Positions 14,908 through 33,654 of a DNA stretch of 55,619 nucleotides are shown piece by piece. The notes below the pieces were generated by a model that searched no databases, was not told where the DNA came from, and saw only the letters and a list, made by a program, of their open reading frames with translations. The stretch comes from Lachnospiraceae bacterium (GTDB lineage: Bacteria; Bacillota; Clostridia; Lachnospirales; Lachnospiraceae). The translations under genes were made by a program, and so were the position numbers. How positions within the stretch are numbered: position 1 is the stretch's first letter; every line of letters starts with the position of its first letter. The stretch is taken from assembly GCA_017467805.1 (NCBI GenBank), contig JAFUKJ010000104.1, forward strand, positions 1 to 55,619, given 5' to 3'.

Positions 14908-14935
14908 AAGTCATTGAGTTAAGTGGAGGATGCAT

Positions 14936-16096
14936 TTGTTGAAAAGAGAGAAAACCAAGAGCAGACTGTATATCTGCCATACCTTTTATCATGTATATGT
15001 TTCCTGTTTAAAGGAATTGAAGCTGCAAAGAGAGTACAAGCATGACTATCAAAAGGGAGATATCGTGCTAAGCAGAATGTCTACAGATTTTGGAGATTTG
15101 GATCAGAAGCTGATAAACTCCCAAATTTTTGGAGAGGTTATCTGGCTGGATGAGAAGCATGAGAGTTTTTTTCCACAGCTTGCAAAATATCGTGAGAATT
15201 ACGGGAATATTGTTAAGCACATGATAAACAGAATGATTTTCACAAAGCTGCTTGCTAAGTGTGAAGAACCATATATGACCATTGATTTTAAGGCATATAA
15301 AGATATTTATGTGTATTGCGACAGCGATCCGATTGGCTATTATTTGAACTATAAGCATATTTATTATCATGCTGTAGAGGATGGTTTGGACTGCCTTAAG
15401 AATCTGGACGATGCCTTTGTTGCAAATAGCGGACATTTTAAGCTGAAAACATGGTTTTCCAAGCATAATCTGATATTTATTATGAATGGTTACGGTAAGT
15501 ACTGTCTGGACATGGAGGTCAATGATATCAGTGTGGTTCCGACAGCGTGTCCTTACTTAGTAGAGGTTCCAAGAAAGCCTTTGGAAAAGGCACTGACTTC
15601 TGAACAGAAGAAGCAGATGATTCGGGCCTTTGTTGCAGATGCGGATTCTTTACTGGCACAGATGCAGCCTCGTACGGAGGGGGAGGAGTTTGCAATGTTC
15701 CTGACAGAACCTCATCCACAGGACGAGGAGCTTCGTAAGCAGGTGTGCCTCGATGTCATAGAAAAATATTGCAAAGGATATCGGGTATTGATAAAACCGC
15801 ATCCACGAGATATGATAGATTATGTAGCCTTATGTCCTGATTGTGTTGTACTTCAGGGAAGGTTTCCAATTGAAGTATTGAACATGTTTGAGGGCATACG
15901 AATTAAGAAGGCAGTATCCATTCTGACAACAGCGATGAATGCGATAGAATTTGTAGAGGAGAAGATTAACTTAGGTGCCAGCTTTTGGGATGCATATGAA
16001 GAGCCTGAGAAGCATGCTTTTAACAAAAAGGCAGGTTTGAAGCTGGTAAATGAGGGAGTCGTTGTAGAAAATGGTAAAGATACTAAAAAAGATTAA
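14936..16096 (+). CDS. GT52/polysialyltransferase-like enzyme, candidate CMP-pseudaminate transferase
   Basis: The 386-residue protein begins RLYICHTFYHVYVSCLK and contains EDG (in YHAVEDGLD) and HP (in LIKPHPRD), the paired motifs of bacterial sialyltransferases of the GT52/GT38 type, which use CMP-activated nonulosonic acids. The same locus encodes a CMP-pseudaminic acid pathway starting 3 kb downstream, so it is the best candidate for placing that sugar. This link is inference. Start choice: the ATG at 14930 directly abuts GGAGG with no spacer, so the TTG at 14936 or 14939 is more likely used. It overlaps the ABC transporter gene by 26 bases, suggesting the capped lipid-linked glycan is the exported substrate. 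Confidence 0.7.
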   Translation: MLKREKTKSRLYICHTFYHVYVSCLKELKLQREYKHDYQKGDIVLSRMSTDFGDLDQKLINSQIFGEVIWLDEKHESFFPQLAKYRENYGNIVKHMINRMIFTKLLAKCEEPYMTIDFKAYKDIYVYCDSDPIGYYLNYKHIYYHAVEDGLDCLKNLDDAFVANSGHFKLKTWFSKHNLIFIMNGYGKYCLDMEVNDISVVPTACPYLVEVPRKPLEKALTSEQKKQMIRAFVADADSLLAQMQPRTEGEEFAMFLTEPHPQDEELRKQVCLDVIEKYCKGYRVLIKPHPRDMIDYVALCPDCVVLQGRFPIEVLNMFEGIRIKKAVSILTTAMNAIEFVEEKINLGASFWDAYEEPEKHAFNKKAGLKLVNEGVVVENGKDTKKD

Positions 16097-18923: not shown

Positions 18924-18965
18924 AAGTTGTTTAGTCGATGATAACCATAAGTGGAGGAAATAGAT

Positions 18966-19961
18966 ATGTTAAATGATAAGACAATATTAATCACTGGAGG
19001 AACAGGTTCCTTTGGTAAATGCTTTACAAAGTATGTTTTGGAAAATTATAATCCGAAGAAAATTATTATTTATTCCAGAGATGAGTTTAAGCAGTGGATG
19101 ATGGCAAATGATTTTGCTCAGTATAAGGATAAGCTCCGTTTCTTCATCGGAGATGTAAGAGATTATGAGCGTATGAAGAGAGCCTTTGAGGGTGTTGATT
19201 ATGTGATTCATGCAGCAGCTATGAAGCAGGTTCCTGCATGTGAGTACAACCCTAACGAAGCAATTAAAACTAATGTAGTAGGCGCACAGAACGTAATTGA
19301 TGCGGCATTGAATACAGGGGTTAAGAAGGTAGTTGCTTTATCCACAGATAAGGCTGTTAACCCTGTAAATCTTTATGGTGGTACTAAGCTTGTATCAGAT
19401 AAGCTCTTTATTGCAGCGAATGCATACTGTGGAGATAGAGATTTAAGCTTTTCTATCGTTAGATATGGTAACGTAGCAGGAAGCCGCGGTTCTATTATTC
19501 CGTTATTTAAGAAGTTAATTGACGAGGGAGCAACAGAGCTTCCTGTAACAGATACAAGAATGACACGTTTCTGGATTAGTCTTACAGAGGGGGTTAAGCT
19601 TGTGATTAAGGCACTGGAAGAGGCTAAGGGTGGAGAGACCTTTATCAGTAAGATTCCTTCCTTTAGAATCCCAGACCTTGCAGAGGCTATGTCACCTGGA
19701 ATTAAGATTAAGGAAATCGGTATCAGACCTGGCGAGAAGCTTGACGAGGTAATGGTTACTACTGAGGACTCTATGACTACTTATGAGTATGATAAGCATT
19801 ATATTATTTATCCTCAGATGTTCTGGCAGGAGTCTAAGAGACCACAGCCAAATGGCAAGAAGGTAGAGGAAGGCTTCTACTATTCATCAGGTAATAATAC
19901 AGAGTGGCTTACAGTGGAAGAGATTAGAGAATTACTTAAGGATGTAGACTTAGAGAAATAA
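18966..19961 (+). CDS. pseB: UDP-GlcNAc 4,6-dehydratase (5-inverting), PseB
   Basis: The first enzyme of pseudaminic acid synthesis converts UDP-GlcNAc to UDP-4-keto-6-deoxy-L-AltNAc. The 331 residues carry the NADP-binding GGTGSFGK (11-18), the YSRDE segment, the catalytic T127-D128-K129 and Y137-x3-K141 pair, then VVRYGNV-like RYGNVAGSRGS and MTRFWIS, all typical of PseB rather than the membrane-bound PglF type. The ATG at 18966 follows GGAGG at 8 bases; the GTG at 18951 is rejected because it overlaps the ribosome site. It heads a unit with its own promoter, and pseC starts 19 bases after its stop. Confidence 0.93.
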   Translation: MLNDKTILITGGTGSFGKCFTKYVLENYNPKKIIIYSRDEFKQWMMANDFAQYKDKLRFFIGDVRDYERMKRAFEGVDYVIHAAAMKQVPACEYNPNEAIKTNVVGAQNVIDAALNTGVKKVVALSTDKAVNPVNLYGGTKLVSDKLFIAANAYCGDRDLSFSIVRYGNVAGSRGSIIPLFKKLIDEGATELPVTDTRMTRFWISLTEGVKLVIKALEEAKGGETFISKIPSFRIPDLAEAMSPGIKIKEIGIRPGEKLDEVMVTTEDSMTTYEYDKHYIIYPQMFWQESKRPQPNGKKVEEGFYYSSGNNTEWLTVEEIRELLKDVDLEK

Positions 19962-19980: not shown

Positions 19981-21174
19981 ATGGAGAAACCAGCAATTGT
20001 CGGCGGAACGCCGATTCGAGATACCAAATTATTTTATGGACATCAGTATATTGATGATGCAGATGTAAAGGCTGTTACAGATGTACTTGTTAGTGATTAT
20101 CTGACCTGCGGACCTAAGGTAACAGAGCTTGAGAAGAGACTTTGTGAGCTTACAGGAGCAAAGTATGCTGTTGCATGCAGTAATGGAACAGCTGCGCTTC
20201 ATATCGCGGCTATGGCAGCAGGCGTAAATGAGGGCGATGAGCTGATTACAACACCAATTACCTTTGCGGCAAGTGCGAATTGTGCATTGTATTGTGGTGC
20301 AAAGCCTGTGTTTGCAGATATCAATCCAAAGACCTATAACATTGACCCTGCCTGTGTAAAGGCAAAGCTTACAGATAAGACTAAGGCAGTGGTTGCAGTT
20401 GATTTTACAGGTCAGGCAGCAGATTTGAATCCATTGTTAGAGATGTGCCATGAGCGTGGTATTGTCCTGATTGAGGATGGTGCGCACTCTATTGGTACAA
20501 AGTATGATGGTAAGTATGTGGGCAGTATTGCAGATATGACAACCTTTAGCTTCCATCCTGTTAAGACTGTTACAGGCGGCGAGGGTGGTGCTGTGCTTAC
20601 TAATAGCGAAGAGTTATATCGTAAGCTTGTGCTTTATCGTGCGCATGGAATTACTAGAGAGGCAGATTTATTAGAGAATCCATCCCATGGCGGCTGGTAT
20701 TATGAGCAGATAGATTTGGGTTATAATTATCGAATGACAGATATTCAGTGTGCATTGGTAATTAGCCAGCTTGATAAATTAGAGATGTTTGCAAAGAGAA
20801 GACATGAGATTGTACAGCGTTACAATGAAGCGTTTTCGAAGCTTCCAGAGCTTTTTGTACAGGAGGAGATTCCTGAGTCTGATACAGTGAGACATCTTTA
20901 TATTCTGAGAATTAAGCCAGAGCTTTTGACGATAGACAGAAAAGGCTTTTTTGAAGCATTGGCTGCAGAGAATATTTGCTGTAATGTACACTATATTCCT
21001 GTATATTGGTTTCCTCATTATCAGAGATTGGGATATGAGAAGGGCTTATGTCCGAATGCGGAGAAGCTTTATGAGGAGATAATGAGTCTTCCATTATATT
21101 ATTCCTTAACAAATCAGGATGTGGAGGATGTGATTGCTGCTGTGGAAAAGATAGTAGCATATTATAGAAAATAG
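19981..21174 (+). CDS. pseC: UDP-4-amino-4,6-dideoxy-L-AltNAc transaminase, PseC
   Basis: This PLP-dependent aminotransferase of the DegT/DnrJ/EryC1 family uses glutamate to aminate the PseB product at C4. The 397 residues include the substrate-side LTCGPKVTELE segment, CSNGTAALH, the PLP-ring aspartate in IEDGAHS (D166) and the Schiff-base lysine in FHPVKTVTGGEGG (K195). Length and the order pseB-pseC fit the pathway. The amine it creates becomes the C7 nitrogen of the nine-carbon sugar, which matters for the formyltransferase domain fused to PseI. A short hairpin terminator follows its stop codon. Confidence 0.92.
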   Translation: MEKPAIVGGTPIRDTKLFYGHQYIDDADVKAVTDVLVSDYLTCGPKVTELEKRLCELTGAKYAVACSNGTAALHIAAMAAGVNEGDELITTPITFAASANCALYCGAKPVFADINPKTYNIDPACVKAKLTDKTKAVVAVDFTGQAADLNPLLEMCHERGIVLIEDGAHSIGTKYDGKYVGSIADMTTFSFHPVKTVTGGEGGAVLTNSEELYRKLVLYRAHGITREADLLENPSHGGWYYEQIDLGYNYRMTDIQCALVISQLDKLEMFAKRRHEIVQRYNEAFSKLPELFVQEEIPESDTVRHLYILRIKPELLTIDRKGFFEALAAENICCNVHYIPVYWFPHYQRLGYEKGLCPNAEKLYEEIMSLPLYYSLTNQDVEDVIAAVEKIVAYYRK

Positions 21175-21207: not shown

Positions 21208-21235
21208 CCAATTGTAGAAAGGGATGATTACCCAT

Positions 21236-21931
21236 ATGAAGAGCGTAGCGATTATCACTGCCAGAGGCGGCAGTAAGAGGATTCCAAGAAAGAATATTAA
21301 GCCTTTTCTTGGAAGACCTATTATTGAATACAGTATAGAAGCAGCATTACAGTCAGGGATGTTTGCGGAGGTTATGGTGTCTACGGATGACGAGGAAATT
21401 GCACAGGTTGCCCGTAAGGCAGGGGCAAAGGTGCCGTTTATGAGGAGTGAAGGCGCTGCAAATGATTTTGCAACGACAGCAGAAGTAATTGAAGAAGTGT
21501 TAGATTCCTATGAGAGAATCGGGCAGAGGTTTGAGCAGGTATGCTGTATCTATCCGACAGCGCCATTTGTTACTGCTAATGCGATAAAGACAGCAATGAT
21601 GCTGTTAGAGCAGGAAAAGTCAGATGCAGTAATTCCAGTGGTGAAGTTTTCTTTCCCACCACAGCGGTGTGTGGTTATCAATGATAATAGATTAACGCCT
21701 AAGTGGCCTGAGGATATGAAAAAACGTTCACAGGATTTAGAACCGTTTTATCATGATTGCGGTCAGTTCTATTGCCTGAATACAAAGAGCTTTCAGGAGC
21801 AGAAGGTTCTATGGATGAAGGATGTAGTACCGTTTGTGCAGGAAGAGAGCAGTGTTCAGGATATTGATACCTTAGAGGATTGGAAGATTGCTGAGATGAA
21901 ATATAGGATTCTGAAAGGAATAGAGGTGTAG
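21236..21931 (+). CDS. pseF: CMP-pseudaminic acid synthetase, PseF-like
   Basis: The 231-residue nucleotidyltransferase starts MKSVAIITARGGSKRIPRKNIK, the CTP-binding signature of CMP-nonulosonate synthetases, and continues with STDDEEIA, FVCCIYPTAPF-type CCIYPTAPF and HDCGQFY, as in PseF. It activates pseudaminic acid with CTP for glycosyltransferases. The ATG at 21224 abuts AAAGGG with no spacer, so the in-frame ATG at 21236, which matches the start of homologues, is preferred although its spacer is long (about 12). The pathway setting argues for PseF over NeuA or LegF. pseI follows 1 base after the stop. Confidence 0.88.
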   Translation: MKSVAIITARGGSKRIPRKNIKPFLGRPIIEYSIEAALQSGMFAEVMVSTDDEEIAQVARKAGAKVPFMRSEGAANDFATTAEVIEEVLDSYERIGQRFEQVCCIYPTAPFVTANAIKTAMMLLEQEKSDAVIPVVKFSFPPQRCVVINDNRLTPKWPEDMKKRSQDLEPFYHDCGQFYCLNTKSFQEQKVLWMKDVVPFVQEESSVQDIDTLEDWKIAEMKYRILKGIEV

Positions 21932-21932
21932 G

Positions 21933-23579
21933 ATGAGTCAGGATAAGGTGATAGAGATTAATGGACGTAAGGTAGGAGAAGGCTATCCTGCGTATATCAT
22001 AGCTGAGATGTCTGGAAATCATGCAGGAAGTATTGAGCGTGCAAAAGAGATTATTCGTGCGGCGAAGGATGCGGGAGCAGACTGCATCAAGATTCAGACT
22101 TACACACCAGATACATTGACCATAGATTGTGATAATGAGTATTTTATGGTAGGAAATGGAACGTGGAGTGGGGAGAATCTTTATCAGCTCTATGGAAAAG
22201 CATACACTCCATGGGAATGGCAGGAAGAGCTGAAGGAAGAGGCGAAGAAGGTAGGAATAGATTTCCTGTCTACGCCTTTTGATGAGACTGCAGTTGATTT
22301 TCTTGAGGATATGGGACTCGGCTTTTATAAGGTGGCATCCTTTGAGATTTTGCATCTTCCATTATTACGTTATATTGCAAGAACAGGAAAGCCTATTATT
22401 ATGTCAACTGGTATGTCAACACTGACAGAGATTGATGAGGCGGTAAGAGCGATTCGCGAGGAAGGAAACGAGCAGATAGCATTGCTTCGTTGTGCAAGTG
22501 CATATCCTGCGATTACAGATGAGATGAATCTTAAGACTATGCAGAATATGGCAGACACTTTTGGCGTGCCAGTGGGGTTATCTGACCATTCGCTTGGGTC
22601 TGTTGGTGCTGTAACTGCGGTTGCTATGGGAGCTTCTATTATTGAGAAGCATTTCTGTCTGGACAGAGCAATAGAGAATCCAGATTCTTCTTTTTCTATG
22701 AATCCAGCGGAATTTAAACAAATGGTGGATGATATCAGACAGGCTGAGAAAGCGATAGGAAGAGTAAGCTATGGTGCTACAGAGCAGGAAGAGTCAAGCA
22801 TGGTATTCAGACGTTCTATATTCTGCGTGGAGGATATCAAGCAGGGAGAGGTGCTTACAGAGAAGAATATCCGCGTCATCAGACCAGGGTACGGCCTGGC
22901 ACCGAAGTATTATCCTGTTATGCTTGGGCAGATTGCTTTGCAGGATATTAAGAGAGGAACACCTATGCAGTTAGAGCTTGCAGGTAAGCAGCAGGGGAAC
23001 ATTCTCTTTTTAACAAATAATAATAATTCTTTATCGCTATATGACTGGATAAAAGAGCGCGACAGCGTAGTGCTGTGTCGTAAGAAGCTGACTCTGGACA
23101 TGGTAAAGGAATGGAATCCGCAGTTGATTGTAAGCTACAATTACCAGCATATGATTACTGAGGATATTATTGATTACATGGAAGGTAAGGTAGTAAATCT
23201 TCATATCTCTTATTTGCCATGGAACAGAGGTGCCAATCCAAATGTATGGAGCTTCTTAGAAGATACTCCTAAGGGAGTAACAATTCATCAGGTTAGCGCA
23301 GGCTTGGATAAGGGTAAGATTTTATATCAAAAGGAATGTCAGTTTGATATTGAGAAGGAAACCTTGGCATCCTCTTATGATACATTGCATGAAGAGATTG
23401 TCAGCTTATTCAAAGAGCATTGGAGTGAGATAAGAAACTGGATCTGTATGCTGAAGGAGCAGGAAGGAACAGGAAGCTATCATAAGCTAAAGGATTTCGA
23501 AGCATTGAAAGAAAAGTTAGAATTTGCGTATACAGATACGATTTCGGAGGTTTTAAAACGATATCGTGACTGTAAATAG
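21933..23579 (+). CDS. pseI: PseI pseudaminate synthase fused to an N-formyltransferase domain
   Basis: Residues 1-285 form the NeuB/PseI barrel that condenses the PseG product with phosphoenolpyruvate (AEMSGNHAGSIERA, KIQTYTPDTLT, LSDHS, EKHFCLDR), and 287-350 form the SAF antifreeze-like domain. PseI alone is about 350 residues; here a further 195 residues follow. Residues 356-495 match the formyl_trans_N fold of 10-formyltetrahydrofolate enzymes, with NLHISYLPWNRG and GLDKGKIL holding the catalytic triad N422, H424 and D459 intact. The fusion implies that one amino group of the pseudaminic acid precursor or product is N-formylated, most likely the nitrogen left by PseC. That is inference; the sequence shows only an intact active site. 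No frameshift or stop separates the halves. Confidence 0.9.
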   Translation: MSQDKVIEINGRKVGEGYPAYIIAEMSGNHAGSIERAKEIIRAAKDAGADCIKIQTYTPDTLTIDCDNEYFMVGNGTWSGENLYQLYGKAYTPWEWQEELKEEAKKVGIDFLSTPFDETAVDFLEDMGLGFYKVASFEILHLPLLRYIARTGKPIIMSTGMSTLTEIDEAVRAIREEGNEQIALLRCASAYPAITDEMNLKTMQNMADTFGVPVGLSDHSLGSVGAVTAVAMGASIIEKHFCLDRAIENPDSSFSMNPAEFKQMVDDIRQAEKAIGRVSYGATEQEESSMVFRRSIFCVEDIKQGEVLTEKNIRVIRPGYGLAPKYYPVMLGQIALQDIKRGTPMQLELAGKQQGNILFLTNNNNSLSLYDWIKERDSVVLCRKKLTLDMVKEWNPQLIVSYNYQHMITEDIIDYMEGKVVNLHISYLPWNRGANPNVWSFLEDTPKGVTIHQVSAGLDKGKILYQKECQFDIEKETLASSYDTLHEEIVSLFKEHWSEIRNWICMLKEQEGTGSYHKLKDFEALKEKLEFAYTDTISEVLKRYRDCK

Positions 23580-23597
23580 CACAGTTGGAGAAGAAGA

Positions 23598-24605
23598 ATG
23601 TTATATTTCAGACTTGATATGAATGAAATCATTGCAACTGGTCATGCCATGAGATGCCTGTCAATTGCAGATGCGGCAAGAGGAATGGGAGAAGAGGTTA
23701 CCTTTATTCTTGCAGACACTCATGCAGTGGAGCTGATAGAGACAAGAGGGCATCGGGCAATTGTGCTGCAAACAGACTGGCGTGACATGGAATCCGAACT
23801 GGATGCGATTGCCAAAGTGATTGAGGCAGAGAAGATTAAGACGATTTTGGTTGATAGCTACCAGGTTACGCCAGAATATCTTAAGAGTCTTAGAAAAATG
23901 GTAAAAGTCGCTTATTTAGATGATTTAAACGCTTTTCCATATGACGTGGATATGCTGATTTGTTATGCGAATTATTATAAAAAGTTTGCATACGAGGAAC
24001 GCTATCGGGATATAAAATTGTGTCTTGGAATGACATATGCACCGTTGCGCAACGTGTTTTCTAATTGTGACAGGAAGCAGATAGCCAAGAAGGCAGATAA
24101 GCTTTTGTTATTATCTGGCGGTGCTGATGCTTTGGATATTTTGGACAGGCTTTTGGAAACGATACCTAAGTCAGATTATGAAAGAATTGATGTTATTTGT
24201 GGTGTTTATTATCCTAAATATGAATTGATTTGCGATAAATATAAGAAGTATCCGAATGTGTGTATCCACAGAGCTGTTTCAGATATAGAAAAGTATATGA
24301 AGGATGCAGATATGGCTGTATCGGCAGGCGGCTCTACCCTTTATGAGCTATGTGCCATGGGGACACCTGTAATTTCTTATGCATTTGTAGATAATCAGCT
24401 GGATAATGTAATACGCTTTGCGCAGGACAATGTGATAGAGTATGCAGGAGATGCCAGAACAGAAGATGTAATAGCAAATATTAATAGGCTTTTGCTAAAA
24501 TACAGAGAGGATAAGGCATTACGGGAAGAGAAATCCAAAAGGATGCAGTGTCTGGTGGATGGAAAAGGTGCGATAAGACTGGTAGAGGCTTTAAAGGGAT
24601 TATAG
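23598..24605 (+). CDS. pseG: UDP-2,4-diacetamido-2,4,6-trideoxy-L-altrose hydrolase, PseG
   Basis: The 335-residue GT-B-fold hydrolase removes UDP from the diamino sugar to give the free sugar used by PseI. It opens with FRLDMNEIIATGHAMRCL, where H16 is the expected catalytic histidine in the GHxxRC motif, and ends with the nucleotide-binding VSAGGSTLYELCAMGTP. GGAG lies just before the ATG. It completes the pseB-C-F-I-G set; only the N-acetyltransferase PseH is missing here, and a candidate is at 33118. If the precursor is formylated rather than acetylated, this enzyme must accept the formylated UDP-sugar. Confidence 0.9.
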   Translation: MLYFRLDMNEIIATGHAMRCLSIADAARGMGEEVTFILADTHAVELIETRGHRAIVLQTDWRDMESELDAIAKVIEAEKIKTILVDSYQVTPEYLKSLRKMVKVAYLDDLNAFPYDVDMLICYANYYKKFAYEERYRDIKLCLGMTYAPLRNVFSNCDRKQIAKKADKLLLLSGGADALDILDRLLETIPKSDYERIDVICGVYYPKYELICDKYKKYPNVCIHRAVSDIEKYMKDADMAVSAGGSTLYELCAMGTPVISYAFVDNQLDNVIRFAQDNVIEYAGDARTEDVIANINRLLLKYREDKALREEKSKRMQCLVDGKGAIRLVEALKGL

Positions 24606-24637
24606 AACATAGGTGAAAGGGAATAAAGGAGATAGTT

Positions 24638-33117: not shown

Positions 33118-33654
33118 ATGGAACCGACAAAGAAGGATGTGCGTGTGATTGGAGAGAAGATTTATCTTAGACCGATTACATTGGAAGATACAGATTTGGT
33201 AGTGAAATGGAGAAACAATGAAAAGGTTGTTCAGAATTTCATATATCGAAAGCCGATTAGCAGAGAAGAGCATATTTGCTGGATGGAGCAGAAGGTAGCA
33301 ACAGGCAGAGTGATTCAGTTTATTATCTGCGATTTGCAAACGGATAAGCCTCTTGGCGTTGTCTATATCCAGAATATTGAAGAGGAGCATTCCAAAGCAG
33401 AGGAAGGAATCTTCTTAGGTGAAGAGGAGGCTTTCGGAAGGGGAATTGGAACAGAAGCGGCGAGACTAATGGTACGGTATGCTTTTGAAATATTGGGGCT
33501 TCATAAATTGTCAGCAAGAGTGCTTGCGTATAATATGGCAAGCCGCAGAATGCATGAAGGTGCAGGCTATGAGCAGGAGGCGTATTTCAAACAGGAGCTT
33601 TATTTGGATGGCAAATACGAAGATTTGATTTTTTATGGCATTATTCATAATTAG
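33118..33654 (+). CDS. GNAT N-acetyltransferase, PseH-like candidate
   Basis: The 178-residue GNAT protein has the opening KIYLRPITLEDTDLVVKWRNNEKV, with the WRN motif common in PseH and RimJ/RimL-type sugar acetyltransferases, and the acetyl-CoA loop GRGIGTEAARL. PseH acetylates the 4-amino group of UDP-4-amino-4,6-dideoxy-L-AltNAc, the one step missing from the pse cluster upstream. The alternative is acetylation of dTDP-Fuc4N, since the WecE-like gene lies 2 kb upstream. The true WecD is longer and built differently. Choice between the two cannot be made from sequence. Confidence 0.7.
   Translation: MEPTKKDVRVIGEKIYLRPITLEDTDLVVKWRNNEKVVQNFIYRKPISREEHICWMEQKVATGRVIQFIICDLQTDKPLGVVYIQNIEEEHSKAEEGIFLGEEEAFGRGIGTEAARLMVRYAFEILGLHKLSARVLAYNMASRRMHEGAGYEQEAYFKQELYLDGKYEDLIFYGIIHN

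Follow-up and report, generated by a model that had tools for sequence, protein, structure and literature searches.

The catalytic motif of formyltransferases is Asn-His-Asp. PseJ of Anoxybacillus is said, in work of Reimer et al. from 2018, to formylate the UDP-sugar of the pseudaminic acid pathway at its C4 amine, and the solved chains of PseJ (PDB 6ci2, 6ci4, 6ci5 and 6edk) have 192–217 residues and stand alone. Fused formyltransferases are also known. Linear gramicidin synthase (LgrA) has a formylation domain that acts on an aminoacyl group and is fused to a peptide synthetase, and ArnA is a bifunctional sugar formyltransferase whose partner is a UDP-glucuronic acid oxidase and whose sugar is another one. 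The pseudaminic acid pathway has been described in the order PseB, PseC, PseH, PseG, PseI and PseF, with an m/z of 631 in negative mode for the acetylated intermediate (PMC7910423). By calculation, a formylated intermediate would be expected at 617. A PseH domain within a bifunctional Vibrio protein (PMC7371886) and a 7-formamido sugar, Pse5Ac7Fo, from a Pseudoalteromonas polysaccharide (PMC3210612) have been reported.

It was found that in the window, the whole 55,619-nucleotide stretch of Lachnospiraceae DNA analysed here, PseI carries a tail which by its sequence is a PseJ-type formyltransferase (FT). The fusion is an unusual arrangement of known enzyme types. Searches of the openly licensed literature gave no paper on a PseI-formyltransferase fusion and none that deals with the enzyme PseJ; within that literature the fusion is, as far as searches show, new as a variant, the enzyme and sugar kinds being known.

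The fusion gene and its locus

The pse genes of the window lie in the order pseB-pseC-pseF-pseI-FT-pseG, each over its curated NCBIfam cut-off. They and the other features discussed below are:

14930..16096, + strand, GT52/polysialyltransferase-like protein (PF07922, 48.8 bits; PF07388, 22.8 bits, just below the cut-off of 23.3)
18951..19961, + strand, pseB, UDP-GlcNAc 4,6-dehydratase (inverting) (TIGR03589, 535 bits, cut-off 408)
19981..21174, + strand, pseC, transaminase making the C4 amine (TIGR03588, 470 bits, cut-off 424)
21224..21931, + strand, pseF, CMP-pseudaminate synthetase (TIGR03584, 298 bits, cut-off 206)
21933..23579, + strand, pseI-pseJ fusion gene, 548 residues (translation, Pfam and NCBIfam profiles)
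21933..22982, + strand, PseI part, residues 1–350, with NeuB barrel (40–278) and SAF (294–345) (TIGR03586)
22983..23000, + strand, junction, about residues 351–356, short and without a start codon for the second domain
23001..23576, + strand, PseJ-type formyltransferase domain, residues 357–548 (Formyl_trans_N and match to solved PseJ)
23196..23204, + strand, codons of N422 and H424, N-x-H (translation, alignments)
23307..23309, + strand, codon of D459 (translation, alignments)
23598..24605, + strand, pseG, UDP-sugar hydrolase (TIGR03590, 180 bits, cut-off 154), far from the genus type and 35% identical to that of the sister genome
33118..33654, + strand, GNAT near wecE, sole rival PseH candidate of the locus (TIGR03585, 91.6 bits, cut-off 93.1)

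The product of 14930..16096 is, from its profile matches, a candidate user of the CMP-sugar.

The translation of 21933..23579 had no inner stops. Pfam placed NeuB at residues 40–278 (312 bits), SAF after the barrel at 294–345 (38.8 bits) and Formyl_trans_N at 388–488 (65.8 bits, E 5.4e-18, cut-off 26.1). A sequence-only reading had described one frame of 548 codons with a complete PseI barrel, a SAF domain and a formyl_trans_N domain, which was confirmed by translation, Pfam and NCBIfam; the Formyl_trans_N match just mentioned answers the profile check that it had proposed for residues 356–495. Residues 20–345 scored 478.3 bits with the NCBIfam PseI model (TIGR03586, cut-off 340.25), and the NeuB/NnaB model gave 327 bits on the fusion protein, below its cut-off of 400. 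The N-terminal half thus resembles TIGR03586 PseI in having NeuB and SAF; it differs in being followed by ∼190 extra residues, which are absent from every same-genus PseI with a visible end (35 of 36).

Among proteins of solved structure, PseJ was the best sequence match of residues 357–548 (6ci2, 135 bits, E 3e-38), with a second PseJ structure close to it (6ci4, 134 bits, E 4.4e-38). The next relative was the formylation domain of LgrA (5es5 and others, at most 90 bits, E 1.5e-24), and VioF (43 bits) was among further ones. The alignment preserves N-x-H and the D farther along in common with PseJ, to which the domain is also similar in its short length; in contrast to PseJ, it is the tail of a PseI. 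The dTDP-4-amino-4,6-dideoxyglucose formyltransferase model NF005755 gave 70.9 bits, below its cut-off of 238, and the ArnA model only 55.5 bits against a cut-off of 777. Since PseJ is described as formylating the C4 amine, the activity proposed by the sequence-only reading has a known counterpart. The three residues of the motif, which it had called intact, were found to be so. When 23 of 25 fused proteins were aligned, that of the window and 22 others (a near-copy, L130, and a protein with an insert, L163, were omitted), N422, H424 and D459 did not vary; the 22 others were 56–62% identical to that of the window.

Three Formyl_trans_N frames, of 551, 310 and 201 residues, were found in the genome of the window, the fusion among them; the frames of 201 and 310 residues have the sizes of PurN and Fmt.

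Genes beside pseI in the genus

PseI was present in all 36 same-genus genomes and unfused in 35 of them; in G008 the contig ended within the gene. A GNAT protein, here called GNATp, adjoined pseI in 33 of the 36 loci, and its profile found PseH (4xpk, 39.2 bits) first among solved structures. It was a frame of its own in 31 loci, in four of which the contig ended before pseG, was fused to PseG in L048, and shared a 394-residue frame in L058 with FT2, a second formyltransferase. In L036 a 2-oxoacid-dehydrogenase-like set occupies its position beside pseI, and L068 and L070 are truncated by the contig end before the presence of GNATp could be judged. The plain six-gene set pseB-pseC-pseF-pseI-GNATp-pseG was observed in G027 (L054).

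Between pseI and pseG, FT2 was observed in 31 of the 36 loci (e.g. L038:10326-11742; best solved match 1zgh) and a PIG-L deacetylase in 28; together they may exchange the N5 acetyl for formyl. The four genes beside pseI in L036 (7995-13529) encode an E1 dehydrogenase, a fusion of a lipoyl domain with a PglD-like acyltransferase, a lipoate ligase and a lipoamide dehydrogenase. The best solved match of the PglD-like hexapeptide acyltransferase part was perosamine N-acetyltransferase. The same four-gene set was observed at L068:3889-9286, placed between pseF and pseI; all four proteins of L036 and the lipoyl protein of L068 were assigned with Pfam, and the other L068 proteins by eye. On these assignments, the set resembles a 2-oxoacid dehydrogenase complex in which E2 would pass its acyl group straight to an amino sugar.

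On the locus map of the window, no acetyltransferase gene was found among the genes from pseB to pseG, and neither GNATp nor FT2 nor PIG-L was found between PseI and PseG. A search for PIG-L in the genome of the window gave zero matches at E 0.001.

Comparison with the sister genome G011 (L038) showed where the locus departs from the genus type. Protein identity was 97.9, 93.5 and 91.8% for PseB, PseC and PseF, fell to 67.7% for PseI and 35.1% for PseG, and rose again to 78.9, 82.3, 83.1 and 81.1% for the four genes that directly follow pseG, 90.4% for WecE and 72.2% for the gene after WecE. Nucleotide similarity broke off inside pseI at 22817 and restarted at 24637, shortly ahead of the gene that follows pseG. 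Because identity drops at PseI and PseG and is high on both sides, the block 21933-24605, which holds the PseI-FT fusion and PseG, looks to have been imported into a conserved locus. Comparable cassettes were found in L110, L111 and L168 (PseI 599–610 bits, PseG 384–413 bits). The PseI-FT-PseG-PseC cassette of L111 has a twin in G342 (L265), arranged as PseI-GNATp-PseG-PseC, and by their gene content these twin cassettes support a functional replacement between FT and GNATp.

An exchange of PseG along with FT for the sake of substrate specificity was considered. The closest PseG in the sample of 397 genomes described below was that of G342 (56%, 396 bits), which sits with GNATp and not with FT, so that the exchange of PseG is no sign of formyl specificity. 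The PseG of L168 and L111 (413 and 402 bits) do sit with FT, although these loci had been selected by their FT. The explanation by specificity was thus weakened.

Distribution and origin of the fusion

The family-wide sample comprised 397 genomes, that of the window included. Seven other genomes encoded close relatives of the FT domain (E 1.2e-40 or better; next match 1e-14), all as separate frames of 203–234 residues. FT adjoined other pse-type genes in five of them (L102, L103, L104, L105 and L108), not in L106 and L107, and L102 showed the gene order of the window, pseF-pseI-FT-pseG, except that FT is a separate gene there. These seven separate frames and the unfused PseI of the genus suggested that the fusion was unique to the window, which was ruled out by a scan in which each species was represented by one genome. 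Among the best 80 of its 523 FT relatives, 24 were PseI-FT fusions, of which L124 is truncated at a contig end. A further 51 were FT without PseI, PseG or GNAT in the frame (L168 with ATP-grasp), four were GNAT-FT and one was PseG-FT; the best 80 include genomes already in other samples (e.g. L102/L123) and near-copies (L109/L114, L128/L130). The search for the same fusion elsewhere that the sequence-only reading had proposed was thereby successful, and its statement that PseI normally has no such tail held for the genus; among these loci the fusion recurs.

PseI was encoded in 69 of these best 80 loci, either in one frame with FT or elsewhere in the stretch fetched. A GNATp-type domain of at least 100 bits was found in nine of the 80, in four of them fused to FT, and in none of the 24 PseI-FT fusions, of which L144 has a 58-bit GNAT. 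The 397-genome sample contained 85 PseI places besides that of the window. PseJ-type genes were found in three of them, GNATp-type genes (60 bits or more within the fetched stretch) in 16, both in none and neither in 66; these small numbers give a Fisher p of 1 for mutual exclusion of the two types. Eleven of the 66 carry a weak GNAT. Because they have neither type of gene, many of the 66 loci must acylate otherwise or lie apart from their acylase; the neighbours in two of them (L272 and L273) resemble ATP-grasp and HAD proteins by eye.

Other fusions were observed in pse loci. FT is joined to ATP-grasp in L168:4894-6615, to a PseG-like protein in L136:4975-6594 and to a GNATp-type domain in L115:5509-6597 and L147:5425-6606 (these four were checked in Pfam). 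GNATp-type domains are also fused to PseI (L153:4470-6032) and PseG (L048:6231-7817), the PseG halves of L136 and L048 being assigned from the frame-by-frame reading of the loci, a GNAT to FT2 (L280:3408-4634), and a PseF-type protein to PseI (L303:4512-6305).

The start Met of stand-alone formyltransferase relatives was missing from the junction in the window, which makes it unlikely that a sequencing frameshift joined two genes. An assembly artefact was rejected on account of this missing second start codon and of the same kind of fusion in 24 of the best 80 loci. Fusions such as those of L116 and L118 share with the window the domain order, a short, similarly placed junction and the motif, but their PseI part lies in another tree clade and their junction letters differ. 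In the PseI tree, the window grouped with eight unfused PseI (support 100/96), at a distance from the 23 other fusions in the tree; a formyltransferase lies near these eight pseI genes, but the loci had been selected by it. A single clade of all fusions was rejected on this tree (AU p 0.0012), for which 55 of 104 rows were used; the split was already known from a first tree when the test was made. When the tree was built from 81 formyltransferase parts, two changes were again needed for the fusions, yet one clade was not rejected (p 0.25). A single origin is thus rejected on the PseI part and not on the FT part. Since the PseI tree rejects one clade, the FT tree needs two changes and the junction letters differ, it is likely, though not certain, that the fusion arose twice.

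Mobile elements were considered as sources. A phage or plasmid origin was set aside. The FT relatives in 15 phage records were weak (best 67 bits); 46 viral contigs (L189–L234) encode FT-domain relatives with up to 47% identity in the best segment. Of 282 matching plasmid records, one covered 80% of the query, in Halorussus; the place was made up of two joined pieces and carried neuB, its formyltransferases being separate genes.

Proposed product and competing readings

With a PseJ-type tail present and the acetyltransferase that the genus keeps beside pseI missing, a formylated nonulosonic acid is the best reading of the locus. We consider it probable, judging from domains and gene neighbourhood, that the PseI-PseJ fusion stands in for PseH by adding formyl to the C4 amine of the PseC product, and that the locus makes CMP-Pse5Ac7Fo. 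For this pathway we infer the substrate, the donor, the product and any benefit of the fusion as follows. PseB and PseC would make UDP-4-amino-4,6-dideoxy-L-AltNAc, and the C-terminal PseJ domain would move a formyl group from 10-formyl-THF to its C4 amine, replacing the acetyl of PseH. PseG would remove UDP from the formylated sugar, the N-terminal PseI domain would condense the 2-acetamido-4-formamido sugar with phosphoenolpyruvate to Pse5Ac7Fo (5-acetamido-7-formamido pseudaminic acid), and PseF would activate it to CMP-Pse5Ac7Fo for a surface glycan. If PseJ replaces PseH, the formylated C4 amine later becomes N7, hence the predicted Pse5Ac7Fo. The 5-NAc-7-NFo type of sugar put forward by the sequence-only reading is thus supported by the tail and the missing acetyltransferase. 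It had left formylation "instead of or besides" acetylation, of which "instead of" is now favoured, although an FT and a GNATp-type enzyme can coexist, as in nine of the best 80 PseJ-like loci.

The same nine loci count in favour of another reading, in which the GNAT at 33118 is the PseH of the strain, N7 is acetylated, and the fused FT is a second acylase, giving Pse5Ac7Ac with some Pse5Ac7Fo. The GNAT lies just below the cut-off of the curated PseH model TIGR03585, which among the matches listed was passed in 11 of 61 genomes; those proteins that were placed (e.g. G028, L037) were genus counterparts of this distal GNAT, whereas GNATp beside pseI failed the cut-off with about 40–63 bits among the matches listed. 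The profile of the distal GNAT reached PseH 4xpk with 42.7 bits, slightly above the score of GNATp, and also a second PseH, 4ri1 (28 bits), which the GNATp profile did not reach. However, the profile of the distal GNAT found spermidine acetyltransferases first (62.9 bits), with PseH about 28 places lower, whereas PseH 4xpk is the best solved match of GNATp, which together with its location argues for GNATp as PseH. The fusions of GNATp-type domains to PseI, PseG and FT point the same way. The distal GNAT lay downstream of wecE in all 21 same-genus loci showing both (at 2.4–3.1 kb in 20, at 5.0 kb in L059), and all 21 also carry GNATp beside pseI. RmlA and RmlB are present in the genome of the window and can feed WecE with a dTDP-sugar, for which a separate acylase would be needed. 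Location separates the two GNATs better than the sequence scores do, and by location the distal GNAT appears, with real doubt, to belong with WecE. A second acylase beside this GNAT is therefore unlikely in our view, if still to be reckoned with. As for automatic annotation, either it would wrongly call the 33118 protein PseH, or the protein truly is PseH.

It is much less probable still that FT works on the product of PseI, a nine-carbon acid whose 7-amine would be free, the fused domains then being consecutive. Fusion would suit consecutive steps, and the junction is short and comparably positioned in the window and the other fusions. But PseG and PseI would have to take a free 4-amine, and PseG-like, GNAT and ATP-grasp proteins also occur as partners of PseJ-type domains, so that the fusion partner does not predict the order of steps. 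The FT domain is hardly to be taken for a vestige or a non-catalytic regulatory tail, given the motif shared without exception by the 23 fused proteins and the retention of the domain as a separate frame in most other PseJ-like loci; no observation spoke for this reading.

If formylation precedes PseG as proposed above, the fused activities are the third and fifth steps, with PseG working between them, and direct hand-over between the domains is not implied. The sequence-only reading had put sugar formation and formylation on one polypeptide; both domains do share one frame, but their steps would not be consecutive. A gain from the fusion may possibly lie in co-expression or in a pathway complex.

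The gap between pseI and pseG might be a place where enzymes are exchanged that determine which N-acyl group a surface nonulosonic acid carries, be it GNATp, the lipoyl-dependent module of L036 or a fused PseJ, a suggestion that we make only tentatively. If so, closely related bacteria would make isomers, e.g. Pse5Fo7Ac and Pse5Ac7Fo, which would alter recognition by hosts or phages, and fusion to PseI would couple formylation with acid synthesis. The N-acyl group of a surface sugar is here predicted from sequence. One protein, with PseB, PseC and PseG, could yield 7-N-formyl pseudaminic acid, which would be useful for enzymatic synthesis of rare sugars. The comparison within the genus suggests that an exchangeable block sets the acyl group, which would be a route to surface variation.
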